From Candidatus Tayloriibacteriota bacterium (GTDB lineage Bacteria > Patescibacteriota > Minisyncoccia > Phycocordibacterales > CAIRYW01): a stretch of 50,448 nucleotides of DNA. The DNA lies in the NCBI GenBank assembly GCA_028286725.1, contig JAQBQZ010000005.1, forward strand, positions 1 through 50,448, in the 5' to 3' direction. Every line of letters starts with the position of its first letter. Position 1 is the first letter of the stretch. The position numbers and the translations under genes are program-made. Below, piece by piece: positions 28,063-36,853 of the stretch. Under the pieces are notes generated by a model. The model did no database searches and was not told where the DNA came from. It saw only the letters and a program-made list of their open reading frames with translations.

Positions 28063-28644
28063 ATGAACAAAAAAGTCTTTATTTTTATAGGTAAAAGTGG
28101 AAGTGGGAAGGGTACTCAGGCGAAACTTCTTATTGAAAAGCTTGGACAAAAAAGTGAGAGTGTTTACTATGTTTCAACAGGGGATGAATTTCGAAGGGTG
28201 TTTAGTATGAATACATACAGTTCGAATTTGGTGAAAGGAATTGTTGATCAAGGGCTCTTTTGCCCTTCGTTTGCAGCGGTTTCAATGTGGACCAACGCGC
28301 TCTTCAGAGATCTTAAAGAGAATGAGCATATCATTATTGATGGAACACCGCGAAGTGTTTCTGAGGCGATGGTTTTGGACACCCTTTTTCCTTTTTATGA
28401 GGCAGAACCGGTTGTGATCTATATTGATGTAACTCGAGAGTGGGCGACAGAAAAGCTTCTGGGGCGAGCACGTCATGATGATACAAATGACGGAATTACT
28501 TCTCGACTGGATCTTTTTGATTCTCAGATTGTTCCAATTGTTGATATGTATAAATCAAGAGAGAGTATTGTTGTTCATCATATAAACGGAGAACAAGCTG
28601 TTGAAGCAGTGCACAAAGATTTGATGACGGCGCTCGAAATTTAA
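28063..28644 (+). CDS. adk: adenylate kinase family protein
   Basis: IFIGKSGSGKGTQAKLLIEKLG (P-loop), STGDEFR, IIIDGTPRS, GRARHDD. Canonical secY-adk-map neighbourhood. Confidence 0.88.
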   Translation: MNKKVFIFIGKSGSGKGTQAKLLIEKLGQKSESVYYVSTGDEFRRVFSMNTYSSNLVKGIVDQGLFCPSFAAVSMWTNALFRDLKENEHIIIDGTPRSVSEAMVLDTLFPFYEAEPVVIYIDVTREWATEKLLGRARHDDTNDGITSRLDLFDSQIVPIVDMYKSRESIVVHHINGEQAVEAVHKDLMTALEI

Positions 28645-28761
28645 TTTCGAAATTCTTCACCCTCTAAAGTTTTATCTATCGTTATGCAATATGGTCAAGT
28701 TTTGCAAAAGGAATTTAGATAATAATAGGTAATATGTGTATGATGAGAATATAATTATTAA

Positions 28762-28868
28762 TATTGCACAACAAGAAAAGCTGGTTTTAATAAATTATCA
28801 TGAAGAGCGATCTCCCTTTCATGTGGTTTACTTTCCAGAATATGCTGTCTAATACAACCAGCTTTTTA
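28762..28868 (+). ncRNA. candidate structured RNA / leader upstream of the homoserine dehydrogenase-like gene
   Basis: Outer arms AAAAGCTGGTT(28776-28786)/AACCAGCTTTT(28856-28866) then a T-run. Inner CATGAAGAG-CGAT-CTC(CCT)TTCATG. TATAAT at 28750-28755. Confidence 0.45.
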
Positions 28869-28892
28869 ATAGATAAAATTTTCTAGGGTAAA

Positions 28893-29738
28893 ATGAAAAA
28901 CGCGATTCTTTTTGGATTTGGAAATATTGGAAAAGTTTTGGCAGAACAAATTCCAAAAGAGAAAATTGATCTTAAATATATTGTAAACTCAAAAGGAGTA
29001 TTTGATTCTAGCCTTTCAAAACAAGGTGATTTGAGTGATTGGAAGATCTTCGCAAATGATATAGGAATTGTATTCATTACAATCCCAACAGTTAGTGACG
29101 GCGCTAAAGCTTTGGAATACGCTTCATTTTTTCTTGAGAAAGATATCCCTGTAGTGACTTGTGAGAAAGCATCGATCGCAAATCACTTTGAATATTTTAA
29201 AAAACATGAAAATATTTTTAAGTTCACAGCATCTGTTGGTGGTGGAACGAAAATGTTAGAACGATTGTCAAAATTTGATGGAGAAGTTTTTGAAATAAAG
29301 GGAATTGTAAATGGAACTCTTAATTTCATAGGAGACAGTTTGAAAAAAGGAATCAATAAAAATGAAATAGTGAAAGAGATCTTAGAAAAAGGTTTTGCAG
29401 AGCCGGGAGCAAATACATTTGAAGAAATTATCGAAGGAGAGTTGAATGACATTCGGCTCAAAACAGTGATCCTTGCGAATAGTTCGGGAATGTTTGAAAA
29501 AATAATTGGACCTCAAGACATAAAGATCGCTCGAAAAGATCTCGCTAAAAGATGTATCGTGAAAATTTCAAAAGAAAAAATCGAAGCCGGGTTCTTGGAA
29601 GATAACGATGCTGAGTGGCTTCCGGATGGGGTGAATAATGTGTTGTATATAAACACTAAAAAAGTATGTTTTGGTCCTGGGGCAGGGGCTGTGGCAACAG
29701 TTGAATCAATGCTTGGAGATCTAAAAAGTTTGATATAA
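28893..29738 (+). CDS. homoserine dehydrogenase family protein
   Basis: AILFGFGNIGKVL (Rossmann), TASVGGGTKMLERL, IKGIVNGTLNFIGDSL, GFAEPGANTFEEIIEGELNDIRLK. Confidence 0.8.
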   Translation: MKNAILFGFGNIGKVLAEQIPKEKIDLKYIVNSKGVFDSSLSKQGDLSDWKIFANDIGIVFITIPTVSDGAKALEYASFFLEKDIPVVTCEKASIANHFEYFKKHENIFKFTASVGGGTKMLERLSKFDGEVFEIKGIVNGTLNFIGDSLKKGINKNEIVKEILEKGFAEPGANTFEEIIEGELNDIRLKTVILANSSGMFEKIIGPQDIKIARKDLAKRCIVKISKEKIEAGFLEDNDAEWLPDGVNNVLYINTKKVCFGPGAGAVATVESMLGDLKSLI

Positions 29739-30856: not shown

Positions 30857-33800
30857 ATGCGACTTGTATTCCGCACAATTTTCTTTGTTGTTTTCTCACT
30901 GATTTTTATATCAAAGCCTCTTGTTGCCGACGCCTCTATTGCGACAGAAACTGCCAAAAATATTGGAATATTTTATGCAAACTCGACTATCTCTCTTGCC
31001 GACAAGACAGGTGAGAAAATTTCTGGAGTAAAAGATTTTTATACTCCACTTTTTGTACATACCAGAGAGGATCTTAAAGGGATCTTCGATGGGGCATTTA
31101 TGGTTTCTAATACTGCGCTCAATTCTGTGATCGGTTTGGGAAGGGGAGTTCTCGATACGAGTGCATACCAGATTCAACATACTGGAGAAAATGTTGGAAG
31201 TGTTGTCGCATCTGCAGGTTCTGTACTCGATGATGTGAATAATGTTCTTTTTACAAAAACACCGGAGGTTATTTCAAAGGCAGATATTGCTAAAGTGGAA
31301 GTTACAATACAGGCTGAAGCTACTCCTGACACAAGCGTGTCGACCAAAAAAACAATTTCAGTTGAGAATTTTGCAAGTGCACAAAATGCGATTCACTTTG
31401 CTCTCCCGAGTGCGGAGGATCTTGGAAGTAAAGTTTTGAATGTATATCAAAATATTGGTAATGCGTTTTTGGATTCTGTCGCACACAATACGAATGAAAC
31501 AGTTTCTTCTTGGAAAGGTATGATCGACAAAACGAGAAATGTGGTCGCTGTAGTGAACAGCAACATCAACGAGGCGACAAACGCTCTCGGCAATGTGGGA
31601 TATATCGGAACTAAAAATGTTTTAGATGGTGGAATAGTCATTGGAAATGGAGTATTGAAAACAAGTGAAAAAGTTATTACAAAAACAGGAGATGTGGTTG
31701 CGAGTGCATTTGTTGGCACCAACAATCTTTTACACAACTCAAAGAATGTTTTGTTGGGTTCTGTGACATCTCTAACAGGGTCTTTGACACAGAGTAAAAA
31801 TAATTCCGTTGCGGGAGTTGGTGCGATCTGGGATTTTATAATTGACAAGATCTCAGCGCCTCTTGTGCCTCTCTTTTTCAATTCTTCAAACTCAGATGAG
31901 ACTTCGATAAATGTCATCGACTCAAAAAGTGGTACTGTTCAAAACGGTGTGGCAAATAACCAAAATTCAATAGCTGTAATAAAAAATAGTACAGGAAATA
32001 ATTCTGTCATTGAAAGGCTTGTTAGTAAAAACTCTTATTTCACTATTGATAATTCCGCAGAAATAAACAAATTGCGAGCTGAGATGATCACGCTCAATAC
32101 AAATACGATAAATTATCTCACTGATCGAATTGCGCTTCAGGGATACCACAGTGTGGGTGGTATATCAAATACGATCAATAATATTATCCAAAATGGAACT
32201 GGTACAAGTAACGCGATAAGTATCGATGCTTCAGGAGGGACAACAGGATTTTCATTTTCAGGGGGACCGATCACTTCATCTGGAACATTCACACTAGGGG
32301 GCATACTTAATATTGCAAATGGTGGCACCGGAACTTCGACGCTGCCTATCTATGGAAAGGTTTTGATCGGCAATGCGAATGGATCTTATGATCTTGTCGC
32401 AACATCAACGCTTGGTCTTGGAGGAAGTGGCGGGACAGTAACAAGTGTCGATCTTTCTGTGCCAACAGGGCTCACTGTTTCAGGTGGTCCTGTTACAACT
32501 TCGGGAACATTCGCACTCGGTCTTCAAAGTGGATACACGATCCCGCTTCTCGCATCAACGACAGAGTGGAATTCTGCATATTCAAATCGAATCACATCAG
32601 CATCAAGTCCACTTTCAATTGCGAACAATGTTATCTCACTTTCAACAGGCGGAGATTGGGCAGGAACTTTGGATGGGCAAAGCGGAAGCTATTACACGAA
32701 TGCCAATAATCTCACAAATTTTGGCACACCTTTTTATTCGTACTTCCACGCAACAACAACTGATGCACTTGCGCAAGGTTCTACAAACAAATATTATTCT
32801 TCGGCTCTTTTTGCAAACGATCTTACTGCAACAACATCACTCTCACATATTCAAACACTTGGGGGACTTAGTTCTTTTGGAATATCGGGGGCGACAACAA
32901 CTTCAACAGGAAATTTAAATGTTGCAGGAAACATTAATTTCAACGGTTCATTCCTCCAAAACGGCTCTCCATTTGTCGGAAGTCAGTGGAATACAAATGG
33001 ATCTGATATTTCATATTCTGCGGGGAATGTAGGAATTGGGACATCTACCCCTTCGGCAAAATTAGCAATTACTGGTAGTAGTTCAGGAGATGTGTTTACT
33101 GCCGCCTCTTCTTTTAATGCCCCTTTGTTTACAATTGGAAATACAGGGGTTGTCAAAGTTGCTGCTGTCAATTCAGCAGCAGGATCAATACAAGGACTTG
33201 ATAATTCAAGTTCTGGAATTGGCATATCGAGCGGAAATTTTAATTTTGGAAATTATGCCTACATAGTAGGAACACAAAACACTTTCAGAGTAAATTCGAA
33301 TCTTGCTTTCGGCTTTAGTACTGATATATTTAATAATACAAACGATGTCGCTGTATCTAGAATCTCATCTGGTGTTCTTGGTATTGGCACTGGTTTGGCG
33401 GGGAATAGTTCTGGCACATTGCTTGCAGGCAACATTGGAATCGGTACAACAACTCCGTGGAAGAATCTTTCAGTCGTAGGTGACATGGTTCTCACTGGAG
33501 GATTCTATGATTCACTTTCATCATCTGGTACAAACGGCATGGTACTTCAATCTACTGGATCAGCCACAAAATGGGTGGCAACAAGTACGCTTGGTCTTTC
33601 GTCAACACTTACTGGAACTACCGGTCAATTTGCATATTTTAGTGGGACTAATAATGCGGTGGGCACTTCGTCAATCTTTATTTCAACAGTAGGGAATGTA
33701 GGGATTGGCACAACGAATCCTAGTGGAAAGCTCGATGTTCAAGGAGGTTATACATACTTGAATGGTCTAAGAATTTCAGGATCTGACAACACAAACACCA

Positions 33801-36800
33801 TCTACCAACCTTCAGGAGCAATTGGAATCACTGCAGGAGGCGGAGGTCAAGGATTATTCGTAACAGCTAGTGGTGCAAGTTATGCGAACGGTGCTTTTGG
33901 TGCTGGAACAGCTTCGCCTGGGTATGCCTTACATGTAAGACCACTTGCAACTGATAAATATGGATTATATATCGATGGACTGTCAGCTCAAACTGCAAAT
34001 CTTGCGCAATTTAATGTCTCTGGCGTTCAAAAAGCTTACATCGATAAAGATGGAGGGGCATATTTTGGTGGCAATGTAAGTGTAGGTACAACAACTCCTT
34101 GGGGCCAGCTCTCAGTAAACCCCAACGGCATCACAGGACCATCATTCGTTGTTGGATCTTCAACTGCAACGAACTTTATTGTGACAAATGGAGGGAATGT
34201 GGGGGTAGGAACAGCAAATCCGACTCAAATGTTTGATGTCTTGGTGCCAACAAATGCCGATAAAGGATTTACATTCAGGTCAGGATCAGGGACTATTTTG
34301 ACTGGTACTAATGGATCATCTGGAAATTATGGCTTAACTTTAGCAAATGGCTTGGTGGCGATTGATAATTTTTATGGTCTCAGAATGACGAGTGGAAGTC
34401 TTCCAATTCAAGGTTTGGATAGCTCAGCAACTATTGCTCGCGATCTTTCAATTAGAGGAAAAACTCTGGAATTTAAAACTGGTAATAGTGGTTCTGCGTT
34501 TCCAAATACAGCTATGACAATAGATGTTAATGGTAATGTTGGTGTAGGTTCTACAACTCCTTGGGGTCAATTCTCTGTAAATCCAAACGGTATCACCGGC
34601 CCTTCATTTGTCGTCGGTTCTTCGACAGCGACGCAGTTTGTTGTATCAAATGGGGGAAATGTGGGAATTAACACTGCAGCCCCATCTTCAACATACAAGC
34701 TTGATATAAATGGTGGAGCGCGAATAACAACTGGAAATAGTCTTATTGTTGATACAGTATCTCCAAATGCGGGTGCGAATCTTACTCTTATTGCAGGGTC
34801 TTCTAACCGCGCTTACTTTGGAGGTAGTGGTGTGTTTGGTGGACAGCTCACAGCTGCTACCGGAGAACTTGGGATATCTGGTACGACTGTGCTTCGGTGG
34901 ACCAATGATGCAACATCATACGGTACGGCTGATATTGGATTTTCTCGAGGAGCTTCAGGAAAATTATATTTAGGTAACGGTACAGCAAGTGATTACACAG
35001 GAACGCTTATTGCGGGAAATATTGGTATCGGCACAACAACTCCTTGGGCTCAGCTCTCAGTAAATTCAAATGGAATTACAGGTCCTTCATTTGCTATCGG
35101 CTCTTCAACTGCAACAAGCTTTATTGTGACAAATGGAGGATATGTGGGAATTGGAACTTCTGCTCCAACTCGAAACTTTGTTGTTACCAATAATATTGCT
35201 GGCGCAGGTACGATATCCATTAGTCCAGGTGATCCAACATTAAGTACGGCAATTGGGGCTACTGTAATGCGAACAAATTCTACTGGTAATTTCGATTTTG
35301 ATAACCCAAAGACTATTAATTTTAACTTCAATACTGGAGATAATACTGGCGCAACCAGAAAATTCACCATAAATTATGGATCGGCCCAAACTAATGCATT
35401 AACGGTAGTTGGTGGCGTCGACCAAGCGAATGCAGGGTTTGTTGGTGTAGGTTCTACAACTCCTTGGGGTCAGTTCTCAATAAACCCAAATGGAATAACA
35501 GGGCCATCATTTGCAATCGGTTCATCAACGGCAACACAATTCATTGTGACAAATGGGGGATATGTTGGAATCGGAACCTCAACGCCAAACAACACACTTT
35601 CTGTAGTAGGTGCGGGGTATTTTACAACGGGGCTTTCAGTTGGAGGATCAAATGCGACGACTACTGGCACGCGAGTGTCCATGACACCTGGAACTTTCTC
35701 TTTATACAACAGTAGTGATACAAGCGCGAGATTAAGCCTCTCGCCTGGTGGAAGCGGTAGTTTGCCTAATGGTGTTCCTGGGATTGTTGTAAATTCGCAA
35801 AGTGGCGCTGGCAGTGCAAACTTGTATGGGGCAGCCATTGCTCAAAATGGTACACAAAATACTCTCTCTTTCTATGTCTCCAATGGCACGACGCTCATGA
35901 CCGAGCGTGCGAGGTTTGATAGTAATGGAAACTTTGGTATCGGAACAACTTCACCTCTTGCGCGCCTTGATGTTGTTGGTATTAACAACGGCACGTCACC
36001 GCTCTTTCAAGTTTCAAGTCTCGCTTCTTTTGCAACAACAACGAGATTTCTTATAGACTCAAGTGGAAATATAGGAATCGGAACTTCAACTCCAGCATTT
36101 CCACTTGATGTATATAGTACTGTGAACTCAACTCAAACATACGGATTTTTGAATGCGAGTGGAGTGGTTGGTACTGCAGGTCCAGGATCAAATGGTTATT
36201 CTATTCGTGCGCAAGGAAGAATTATGGCGCCAGAATTTAATGCAGTGTCGGACGCTCGTTTGAAGAATGTGAATTTTGAGCTTACTTCAGATGTGGCATT
36301 GGGAGCTCTTTTGAAACTTCAGCCTGTATCATTTAATTGGAAAAATGAACCAAATGGTCAACCTATTTTAGGTTTCCTTGCTCAAGATGTTGAAACTGTT
36401 ATTCCAAATGCAGTATCGAAAATAGCAACAGAAAATTTTGCAGATCAAAGAATGCTTGATTACAACCAGATTACGGCTGTGATGGTAGGAGCGGTTAAGG
36501 AGATCAAGATCGAGCTTGATGCTTTGAGTCAAAAGATCTCAAGTATGATGCCATGGTTTGTTGACGGTAAGTTCAAGGTCCAAAGTGACGTTTGTGTTGA
36601 TGACGTTTGTGTGACAAAGCAGCAATTCAAGCAAATGCTTTTGAACAGCGGTGCATCACATACGACAGTAAGTGTTCCAAATCCAAATAATACTTCAACC
36701 ACCACAGAATCCACATCAACAACAACTGAGTCAACTTCTACAACTACTCCGCCAAATGAAGATGTAAATACTCCTGTAGAAACTCCATCAGAACCAATAC

Positions 36801-36853
36801 CTGAACCTGCTTCAGCAGATGCGGCTCCGGCACCAGAGACTATAACCCCTTAA
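30857..36853 (+). CDS. giant secreted repeat adhesin/fibre-like protein with S74 intramolecular chaperone domain
   Basis: Signal peptide MRLVFRTIFFVVFSLIFISKPLVADA. Repeated GNVGIGTTTPWGQLSVNPNGITGPSFVVGSSTAT modules. S74-like SDARLKNVNFELTSDVALGALLKLQPVSFNWK...LGFLAQDVETVIP. Thr/Pro-rich tail. Confidence 0.85.
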   Translation: MRLVFRTIFFVVFSLIFISKPLVADASIATETAKNIGIFYANSTISLADKTGEKISGVKDFYTPLFVHTREDLKGIFDGAFMVSNTALNSVIGLGRGVLDTSAYQIQHTGENVGSVVASAGSVLDDVNNVLFTKTPEVISKADIAKVEVTIQAEATPDTSVSTKKTISVENFASAQNAIHFALPSAEDLGSKVLNVYQNIGNAFLDSVAHNTNETVSSWKGMIDKTRNVVAVVNSNINEATNALGNVGYIGTKNVLDGGIVIGNGVLKTSEKVITKTGDVVASAFVGTNNLLHNSKNVLLGSVTSLTGSLTQSKNNSVAGVGAIWDFIIDKISAPLVPLFFNSSNSDETSINVIDSKSGTVQNGVANNQNSIAVIKNSTGNNSVIERLVSKNSYFTIDNSAEINKLRAEMITLNTNTINYLTDRIALQGYHSVGGISNTINNIIQNGTGTSNAISIDASGGTTGFSFSGGPITSSGTFTLGGILNIANGGTGTSTLPIYGKVLIGNANGSYDLVATSTLGLGGSGGTVTSVDLSVPTGLTVSGGPVTTSGTFALGLQSGYTIPLLASTTEWNSAYSNRITSASSPLSIANNVISLSTGGDWAGTLDGQSGSYYTNANNLTNFGTPFYSYFHATTTDALAQGSTNKYYSSALFANDLTATTSLSHIQTLGGLSSFGISGATTTSTGNLNVAGNINFNGSFLQNGSPFVGSQWNTNGSDISYSAGNVGIGTSTPSAKLAITGSSSGDVFTAASSFNAPLFTIGNTGVVKVAAVNSAAGSIQGLDNSSSGIGISSGNFNFGNYAYIVGTQNTFRVNSNLAFGFSTDIFNNTNDVAVSRISSGVLGIGTGLAGNSSGTLLAGNIGIGTTTPWKNLSVVGDMVLTGGFYDSLSSSGTNGMVLQSTGSATKWVATSTLGLSSTLTGTTGQFAYFSGTNNAVGTSSIFISTVGNVGIGTTNPSGKLDVQGGYTYLNGLRISGSDNTNTIYQPSGAIGITAGGGGQGLFVTASGASYANGAFGAGTASPGYALHVRPLATDKYGLYIDGLSAQTANLAQFNVSGVQKAYIDKDGGAYFGGNVSVGTTTPWGQLSVNPNGITGPSFVVGSSTATNFIVTNGGNVGVGTANPTQMFDVLVPTNADKGFTFRSGSGTILTGTNGSSGNYGLTLANGLVAIDNFYGLRMTSGSLPIQGLDSSATIARDLSIRGKTLEFKTGNSGSAFPNTAMTIDVNGNVGVGSTTPWGQFSVNPNGITGPSFVVGSSTATQFVVSNGGNVGINTAAPSSTYKLDINGGARITTGNSLIVDTVSPNAGANLTLIAGSSNRAYFGGSGVFGGQLTAATGELGISGTTVLRWTNDATSYGTADIGFSRGASGKLYLGNGTASDYTGTLIAGNIGIGTTTPWAQLSVNSNGITGPSFAIGSSTATSFIVTNGGYVGIGTSAPTRNFVVTNNIAGAGTISISPGDPTLSTAIGATVMRTNSTGNFDFDNPKTINFNFNTGDNTGATRKFTINYGSAQTNALTVVGGVDQANAGFVGVGSTTPWGQFSINPNGITGPSFAIGSSTATQFIVTNGGYVGIGTSTPNNTLSVVGAGYFTTGLSVGGSNATTTGTRVSMTPGTFSLYNSSDTSARLSLSPGGSGSLPNGVPGIVVNSQSGAGSANLYGAAIAQNGTQNTLSFYVSNGTTLMTERARFDSNGNFGIGTTSPLARLDVVGINNGTSPLFQVSSLASFATTTRFLIDSSGNIGIGTSTPAFPLDVYSTVNSTQTYGFLNASGVVGTAGPGSNGYSIRAQGRIMAPEFNAVSDARLKNVNFELTSDVALGALLKLQPVSFNWKNEPNGQPILGFLAQDVETVIPNAVSKIATENFADQRMLDYNQITAVMVGAVKEIKIELDALSQKISSMMPWFVDGKFKVQSDVCVDDVCVTKQQFKQMLLNSGASHTTVSVPNPNNTSTTTESTSTTTESTSTTTPPNEDVNTPVETPSEPIPEPASADAAPAPETITP
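34077..35575 (+). repeat. four dispersed copies of a ~130-nt coding module
   Basis: Near-identical GTAGGTACAACAACTCCTTGGGGYCAG...GGTCCTTCATTTG...GGTTCTTCAACWGCAAC... at about 34080, 34549, 35030 and 35446. Confidence 0.8.

Follow-up and report, generated by a model that had tools for sequence, protein, structure and literature searches.

The structured stretch directly upstream of the homoserine dehydrogenase-like gene is probably a non-autonomous copy of a mobile element of GIY-YIG type, hitherto undescribed, that has start codons as its target. The stretch lies within the 50,448 nucleotides of Candidatus Tayloriibacteriota DNA analysed here (contig JAQBQZ010000005.1), which we refer to as the window. 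That this copy is a decayed, ORF-less derivative and a member of a family of GIY-YIG elements is very likely. The chances seem to us evenly balanced that such elements represent a new class of DNA mobile element, in which an autonomous unit of about 290-305 bp encodes an 84-aa GIY-YIG nuclease that reads its own three-way junction and inserts by start codons. Other subfamilies of this class would reside in the hairpins of genes for rRNA, RNase P RNA and tRNA, and the class would be widespread in CPR/Patescibacteria and account for the so far unexplained GIY-YIG insertions in their rRNA genes.

The element copy in the window and its relatives in the same genome

An earlier note on this DNA had proposed a candidate structured RNA or attenuator at 28735-28893. 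The TATAAT at 28750-28755, the stem arms AAAAGCTGGTT (28776-28786) and AACCAGCTTTT (28856-28866, followed by T28867) and the ORF MKSDLPFMWFTFQNMLSNTTSFLIDKIF (28800-28886) are present as described, and RNAfold recovers the 11-12 bp stem from this interval (z -2.3, 6 of 200 shuffles being equally good). The stem is real, but the interval covers only the right-hand two thirds of the structured unit (Table 1). Folded as a whole, the unit gives a three-way junction as its minimum free energy (MFE) structure (z -4.2, reached by 0 of 200 shuffles).

Table 1. Features of the element copy in the window and of the adjoining genes
Feature	Position	Strand	Remarks
Upstream host gene, adenylate kinase-like	28063..28644	+	PF00406
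Element with conserved flanking letters	~28656-28892	+	TTCA on the left, TAAA on the right
Whole ORF-less element	28660..28888	+	229 bp; same ends as the copies in its own genome
P1 left arm CCCTCTAAAGTTTTATCTAT	28660..28679	+	pairs with 28869-28888 save for a 2x2 internal loop
P2 left arm GTTATGCAATAT	28681..28692	+	corresponds to the ORF start (ATG CAA TAT) of intact GIY-YIG copies
Remnant of the GIY-YIG ORF 5' end ATGCAATATGGTCAAGTTTTGCAAAAGG	28684..28711	+	aligned with ATGCAATATGTTTACATTTTGCAAAGTA in L014
P2 right arm ATATTGCACAAC	28761..28772	+	corresponds to the I-L-H-N codons of the intact ORF
P3 left arm GAAAAGCTGGTT	28775..28786	+	5' stem arm of the earlier note; corresponds to the K-K-K-V codons
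P3 right arm AACCAGCTTTTT	28856..28867	+	3' arm and T-run of the earlier note; corresponds to the N-F-F codons near the ORF end
Remnant of the ORF end, AAT AGA TAA (Asn-Arg-stop)	28868..28876	+	
P1 right arm ATAGATAAAATTTTCTAGGG	28869..28888	+	ends in SD-like AGGG (28885-28888)
Downstream host gene, homoserine dehydrogenase-like, 281 aa	28893..29738	+	PF00742, E=1.6e-10

A similarity search of the window's own genome (G000) with the noted stretch returned many matches to the right end and to the box preceding the stem, and at least 13 copies of the element are present. Allowing up to three mismatches, the 23-nt sequence of the right end, TAATAGATAAAATTTTCTAGGGT, is found at 13 places and its reversed control at none. 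In nearly all cases a left counterpart (reverse complement ATAGATAAAACTTTAGAGGG) precedes it by about 200-290 bp, with the box AATATTGCATAACAAGAAAA between the two. The ends covary between the sides, CCC being matched by GGG or TCC by GGA, and ATAGG, ATAGAC or ACAGC appears on both. A start codon follows 3-5 nt after the right end in all 13 copies, 4 nt past the element in the case of the window, and opens ORFs of 85-553 aa; family members in G001, G010, G033, G018 and G014 also sit directly before an ATG. Among the genes downstream of the copies in G000 are those for GMP synthase, FtsA, riboflavin synthase, a ComM/YifB-type ATPase, BacA, the DNA polymerase III delta subunit, a PIF1-type helicase, a methyltransferase, an MFS transporter and a PLD-domain protein, which are unrelated and form no obvious regulon.

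The earlier note had likened the 3' arm and the T-run to a terminator, and had suggested that the stretch could be a small RNA or a leader of an isolated amino-acid gene. We rejected the attenuator and terminator reading because the same element precedes many unrelated genes and because hom orthologs, namely those in G001 and G039, lack it. A stem and a T-run do precede the homoserine dehydrogenase-like gene, but the T-run closes the P3 arm and passes directly into P1, the element is also found before 12 other unrelated genes, and no Rfam family matches it, which makes an amino-acid attenuator, a terminator or a small RNA serving this gene highly improbable. The copies have conserved the three stems, but neither the inner hairpin nor the loop 2 TATAAT nor the 28-codon ORF; this ORF occurs in the window copy only and contains no regulatory codon run and no Thr/Met/Ile run. 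Scanning the window with the Rfam 15 covariance models yielded 0 matches above the gathering score, a tRNA scan of the window gave no match, and an Rfam scan of 14 element loci returned tRNAs only.

Regarding the adjoining genes, the homoserine dehydrogenase-like gene is short, stands alone between adk and map and is rare (3 of 60 genomes, its own included), and its context differs in G001. Following map, the window encodes at 30857-36853 a repetitive 1998-aa protein, whose C-terminal end resembles endosialidase chaperones (S74).

A covarying three-way junction shared by the family

The three-way junction made up of P1, P2 and P3 is likewise the MFE structure of a copy from G001 (z -5.4) and of the intact copy L010 (z -6.1). 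As a gene-based contig search for hom orthologs found none, covariation of the leader across orthologs was replaced by a comparison of copies within and across genomes. The resulting alignment comprises 19 elements from five genera and 40 pairs, in which 96.2% of the cells are paired, compared to 39-50% in slid controls. Compensatory changes on both sides are seen at 25 of the 40 pairs (8 of 18 in P1, 10 of 12 in P2 and 7 of 10 in P3) and in 0 of 500 shuffles, a count that is not a probability since the alignment consists of hand-chosen segments placed in register and of related sequences. One extra T-A pair of the longer P1 stems was left out, and unalignable P2 ends and one missing P1 arm were entered as N. 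The covariation argument is carried by the slid controls and by whole-arm replacement. In L044, the ends TTCA|TCC...GGA|TAAAATG are kept around a 21-bp P1 that is entirely different, and the copies in G001 and G014 have compact P2 hairpins of unrelated sequence. The claim of a structured element, to be abandoned according to the earlier note if homologous regions held no compensatory changes, thus stands. We regard the structure, the copies and the family membership as demonstrated, and likewise the derivation of the conserved boxes from the ORF, the adjacency to start codons and the lineage-specific presence described below.

RNAalifold predicts the same topology, made of other sequences, in two sister subfamilies. 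In GIY-YIG ORFs located in tRNA, rRNA and RNase P genes, P2 and P3 were mostly absent in the windows tested. A covariance model built without loops (R1) missed most copies, as the real loops measure about 70 nt, whereas a model with N-filled loops (R2) found them and scores the window copy, itself a member of the R2 training set, at 96 bits. We infer which strand folds from two conserved G-U (G-T) pairs, one located in P1 and one at the base of P3, which point to the sense strand but may be inherited.

Loop 3 of the ORF-less copies is shortened to 65-72 nt, versus 127 nt in intact copies, and the length of loop 2 is unchanged (68-73 nt; 45 nt in one copy). The loop sequences mostly have no mutual homology (median z about 0). 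The loops are thus scrambled while their lengths (65-73 nt) and the stems persist, a pattern more suggestive of selection acting in place than of recent copying, which counts against the mobile-element reading. Two elements in G000 deviate in layout. In L017 (C5:83212-83375, 164 bp), the interior with P2 and P3 is inverted relative to the outer P1 ends, as if flipped between terminal repeats, and L134 (C1:49946-50031, about 90 bp), located before a DoxX-like gene, has three short hairpin arms between the same ends as the family (TTCA|CC...GG|ATAAAA) and is possibly a minimal form of the element.

The GIY-YIG gene, probable mobility and a proposed mechanism

The intact copies L010 (C6:11692-11982) and L014 (C12:62572-62862) of G000 are 291 bp each and encode intact ORFs of 84 codons, which are 80% identical. 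The L010 product, MQYVYILQSKKDLDLYIGCTGDIKSRLILHNKKKVESTKSRTPLILIHYEAYLDPEDAFMREKYLKTQWGRKFINKNLSNFFNR, is a GIY-YIG domain protein (PF01541, 44 bits against a cut-off of 22.6, E=2e-11) and, judged by this match, is a member of the nuclease superfamily. Homologs are encoded in 42 of the 60 genomes searched, the window's own included, with Ca. Taylorbacteria among them. The nearest solved relative by sequence is PDB 1zg2 (E=0.008), a UPF0213 GIY-YIG protein; we know of no link between UPF0213 proteins and terminal repeats or mobility. The boxes kept in all copies of the element are codons of this ORF, namely the start region (MQY), ILHNKKKV and NFFNR-stop. In the intact copies, the start codon lies in P2, the HN-KKK codons in P2 and P3, and the last codons and the stop in P3 and P1, the stop itself falling inside the P1 right arm.

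GIY-YIG is a fold of homing nucleases, and one might therefore suspect that a homing endonuclease gene entered a structured leader that was already there. We consider this very improbable, as P2 and P3 are part of the ORF itself, where, in the intact ORFs of most members of the window's subfamily and of one sister subfamily, they surpass shuffles with synonymous codons, and as the insertion sites are unrelated genes rather than one allele.

Mobility of the family is strongly supported, and the presence of the element at the sites tested is lineage-specific. At guaA, G000 carries an intact element and G001 none. An element sits between glyA and tmk in G001, whereas in G000 and G033 the two genes abut, with overlapping stop and start or 4 nt between them, and no element is found. 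Seven sister elements (L062, L070, L071, L079, L082, L092 and L102) repeat the ATGN(N) of the host gene at their left end; the window's own subfamily shows no clear target duplication, the best candidate being a TAA seen in some of its copies. An IS200-type transposase was considered as the mobilising enzyme and rejected, as none was found in G000; a search for Y1/HUH transposases (PF01797) was negative in G000 and G014. On a Ca. Yanofskybacteria contig, two near-identical GIY-YIG elements (L153 and L154), apparently recent copies, sit at the codons of the GFT|LIE processing site of two pilin-like genes.

The fold could instead be a domesticated regulatory 5' leader, in which an mRNA three-way junction controls the translation of a set of genes, since P1 pairs the SD-like AGGR with YCCT. 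The terminal C-G/U-A pair of P1 covaries perfectly (10 versus 8), the stems are kept although the loops are scrambled, and part of the copies have -10-like boxes beside their left ends, all of which would suit a leader. However, the conserved boxes derive from a nuclease-coding sequence, the downstream genes form no obvious regulon and the sites tested are lineage-specific; as the sole explanation, a leader is therefore unlikely. Such a role is compatible with mobility and could come in addition to it, and the persistence of the stems in gutted copies, which mobility alone does not explain, may reflect a leader function.

The intact unit (about 290-305 bp) consists of terminal inverted P1 arms around a single gene for an 84-aa GIY-YIG nuclease. 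The coding sequence also forms P2, in which the leader and the start codon pair with the LHN codons, and P3, in which the KKK codons pair with the last codons, so that one strand folds into a three-way junction. In the mechanism we propose, the nuclease, presumably structure-selective like Slx1/UvrC-type enzymes, would recognise the folded strand and start transposition, acting on the three-way junction of its own strand as single-stranded DNA or RNA, and could act in trans on the ORF-less copies. Insertion would take place immediately 5' of start codons, with the gap between the -10 box and the start codon as the putative target; the downstream gene would keep its own ATG, and the right end of the element would supply it with an SD-like AGGR. 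Since the ORF of intact copies stops within the right arm of P1, P1 could be opened when the nuclease is translated, which would make the SD of the host gene accessible. GIY-YIG proteins are known as homing or repair nucleases, and to our knowledge no transposon relying on a GIY-YIG protein only has been described. The GIY-YIG nuclease is the sole protein of the element, and we infer with about even confidence that it is the mover and acts through the three-way junction. A published study describes GIY-YIG enzymes of the SLX1 lineage as structure-selective on branched DNA (PMC9071465).

A -10 box at the left end scores at least 3.6 in 8 of 12 copies in G000, compared to a share of about 0.2 of the shuffles that score at least 3. 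Over 37 elements, it is found in 38% versus 22%, and as a universal target it is suggestive only. A -10-like box is also seen in loop 3 of several ORF-less copies and could perhaps start mRNAs past the left P1 arm, a weakly supported idea; the mean gives p of about 0.008, a modest signal, and most copies taken singly are not significant.

Comparison with known systems

The window family resembles MITEs and other non-autonomous palindromic elements. It consists of several short, ORF-less copies with inverted ends, has autonomous, ORF-carrying relatives with matching ends (L010 and L014) and offers an empty site, as the tmk element of G001 is missing in G000 and G033. It differs from them in that the related ORF encodes a GIY-YIG nuclease and not a DDE or HUH transposase, in that ends and interior form a covarying three-way junction, and in its fixed position at start codons. 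With IS200/IS605 and REP/RAYT elements it shares the small size and the strand-folding hairpins near the ends, but neither the element nor G000 encodes a Y1/HUH protein. Free-standing GIY-YIG homing endonucleases of the phage T4 seg type are likewise a single small selfish GIY-YIG gene; the element, in contrast, is not engaged in allelic homing, has a DNA fold and ends of its own and occupies many unrelated sites.

A survey from 2024 reported GIY-YIG-encoding insertions in CPR rRNA genes that match no intron and seem to lie outside a homing context (PMC11270868). Those insertions share with the element the small GIY-YIG ORFs, the lack of a group I or group II intron and the same radiation. They differ in that they were reported in rRNA genes only, and neither an end structure or three-way junction nor a preference for start codons or copies lacking the ORF was described for them. 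One could imagine that the element is an RNA intervening sequence, which is cut from transcripts by an RNase III-type enzyme or spliced, the fold serving removal or insulation. The same broad family has GIY-YIG ORFs inside 16S rRNA, 23S rRNA and RNase P RNA, and P1 would keep the flanks together. Directly before a start codon, however, there is nothing to rejoin, and Rfam contains no match to a group I or II intron core or any other intron family, which makes this explanation quite improbable.

Our literature search, which was limited in coverage, found no description of this class of element. If the GIY-YIG mobile element is what we propose, few autonomous mobile elements known would be as small, and its movement would depend on a nuclease fold that is not known to have such a role in transposition, with the codons of its gene doubling as the recognition structure. 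It would account for the small GIY-YIG genes and insertions commonly seen in CPR genomes, show how insertions are tolerated by streamlined genomes, namely at start codons and at the tips of hairpins, and provide a compact, testable system in which Slx1-like structure-selective cutting is used for movement.

GIY-YIG ORFs were also found in RNA genes. L103, L106 and L068, as well as L046 by sequence, have such ORFs inside 16S rRNA, 23S rRNA and RNase P RNA. In the set made up of these four loci, L048 and L096, GIY-YIG ORFs with inverted ends lie within hairpins of these RNAs, and two more are located near tmRNA genes. Among the relatives, L032, L033, L035, L050, L052 and L053 carry GIY-YIG ORFs directly upstream of tRNA genes. 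At several of the tRNA-adjoining loci, the left flank is a partial copy of the tRNA 5' part, which is interrupted at the D-loop by a GC-rich palindrome.
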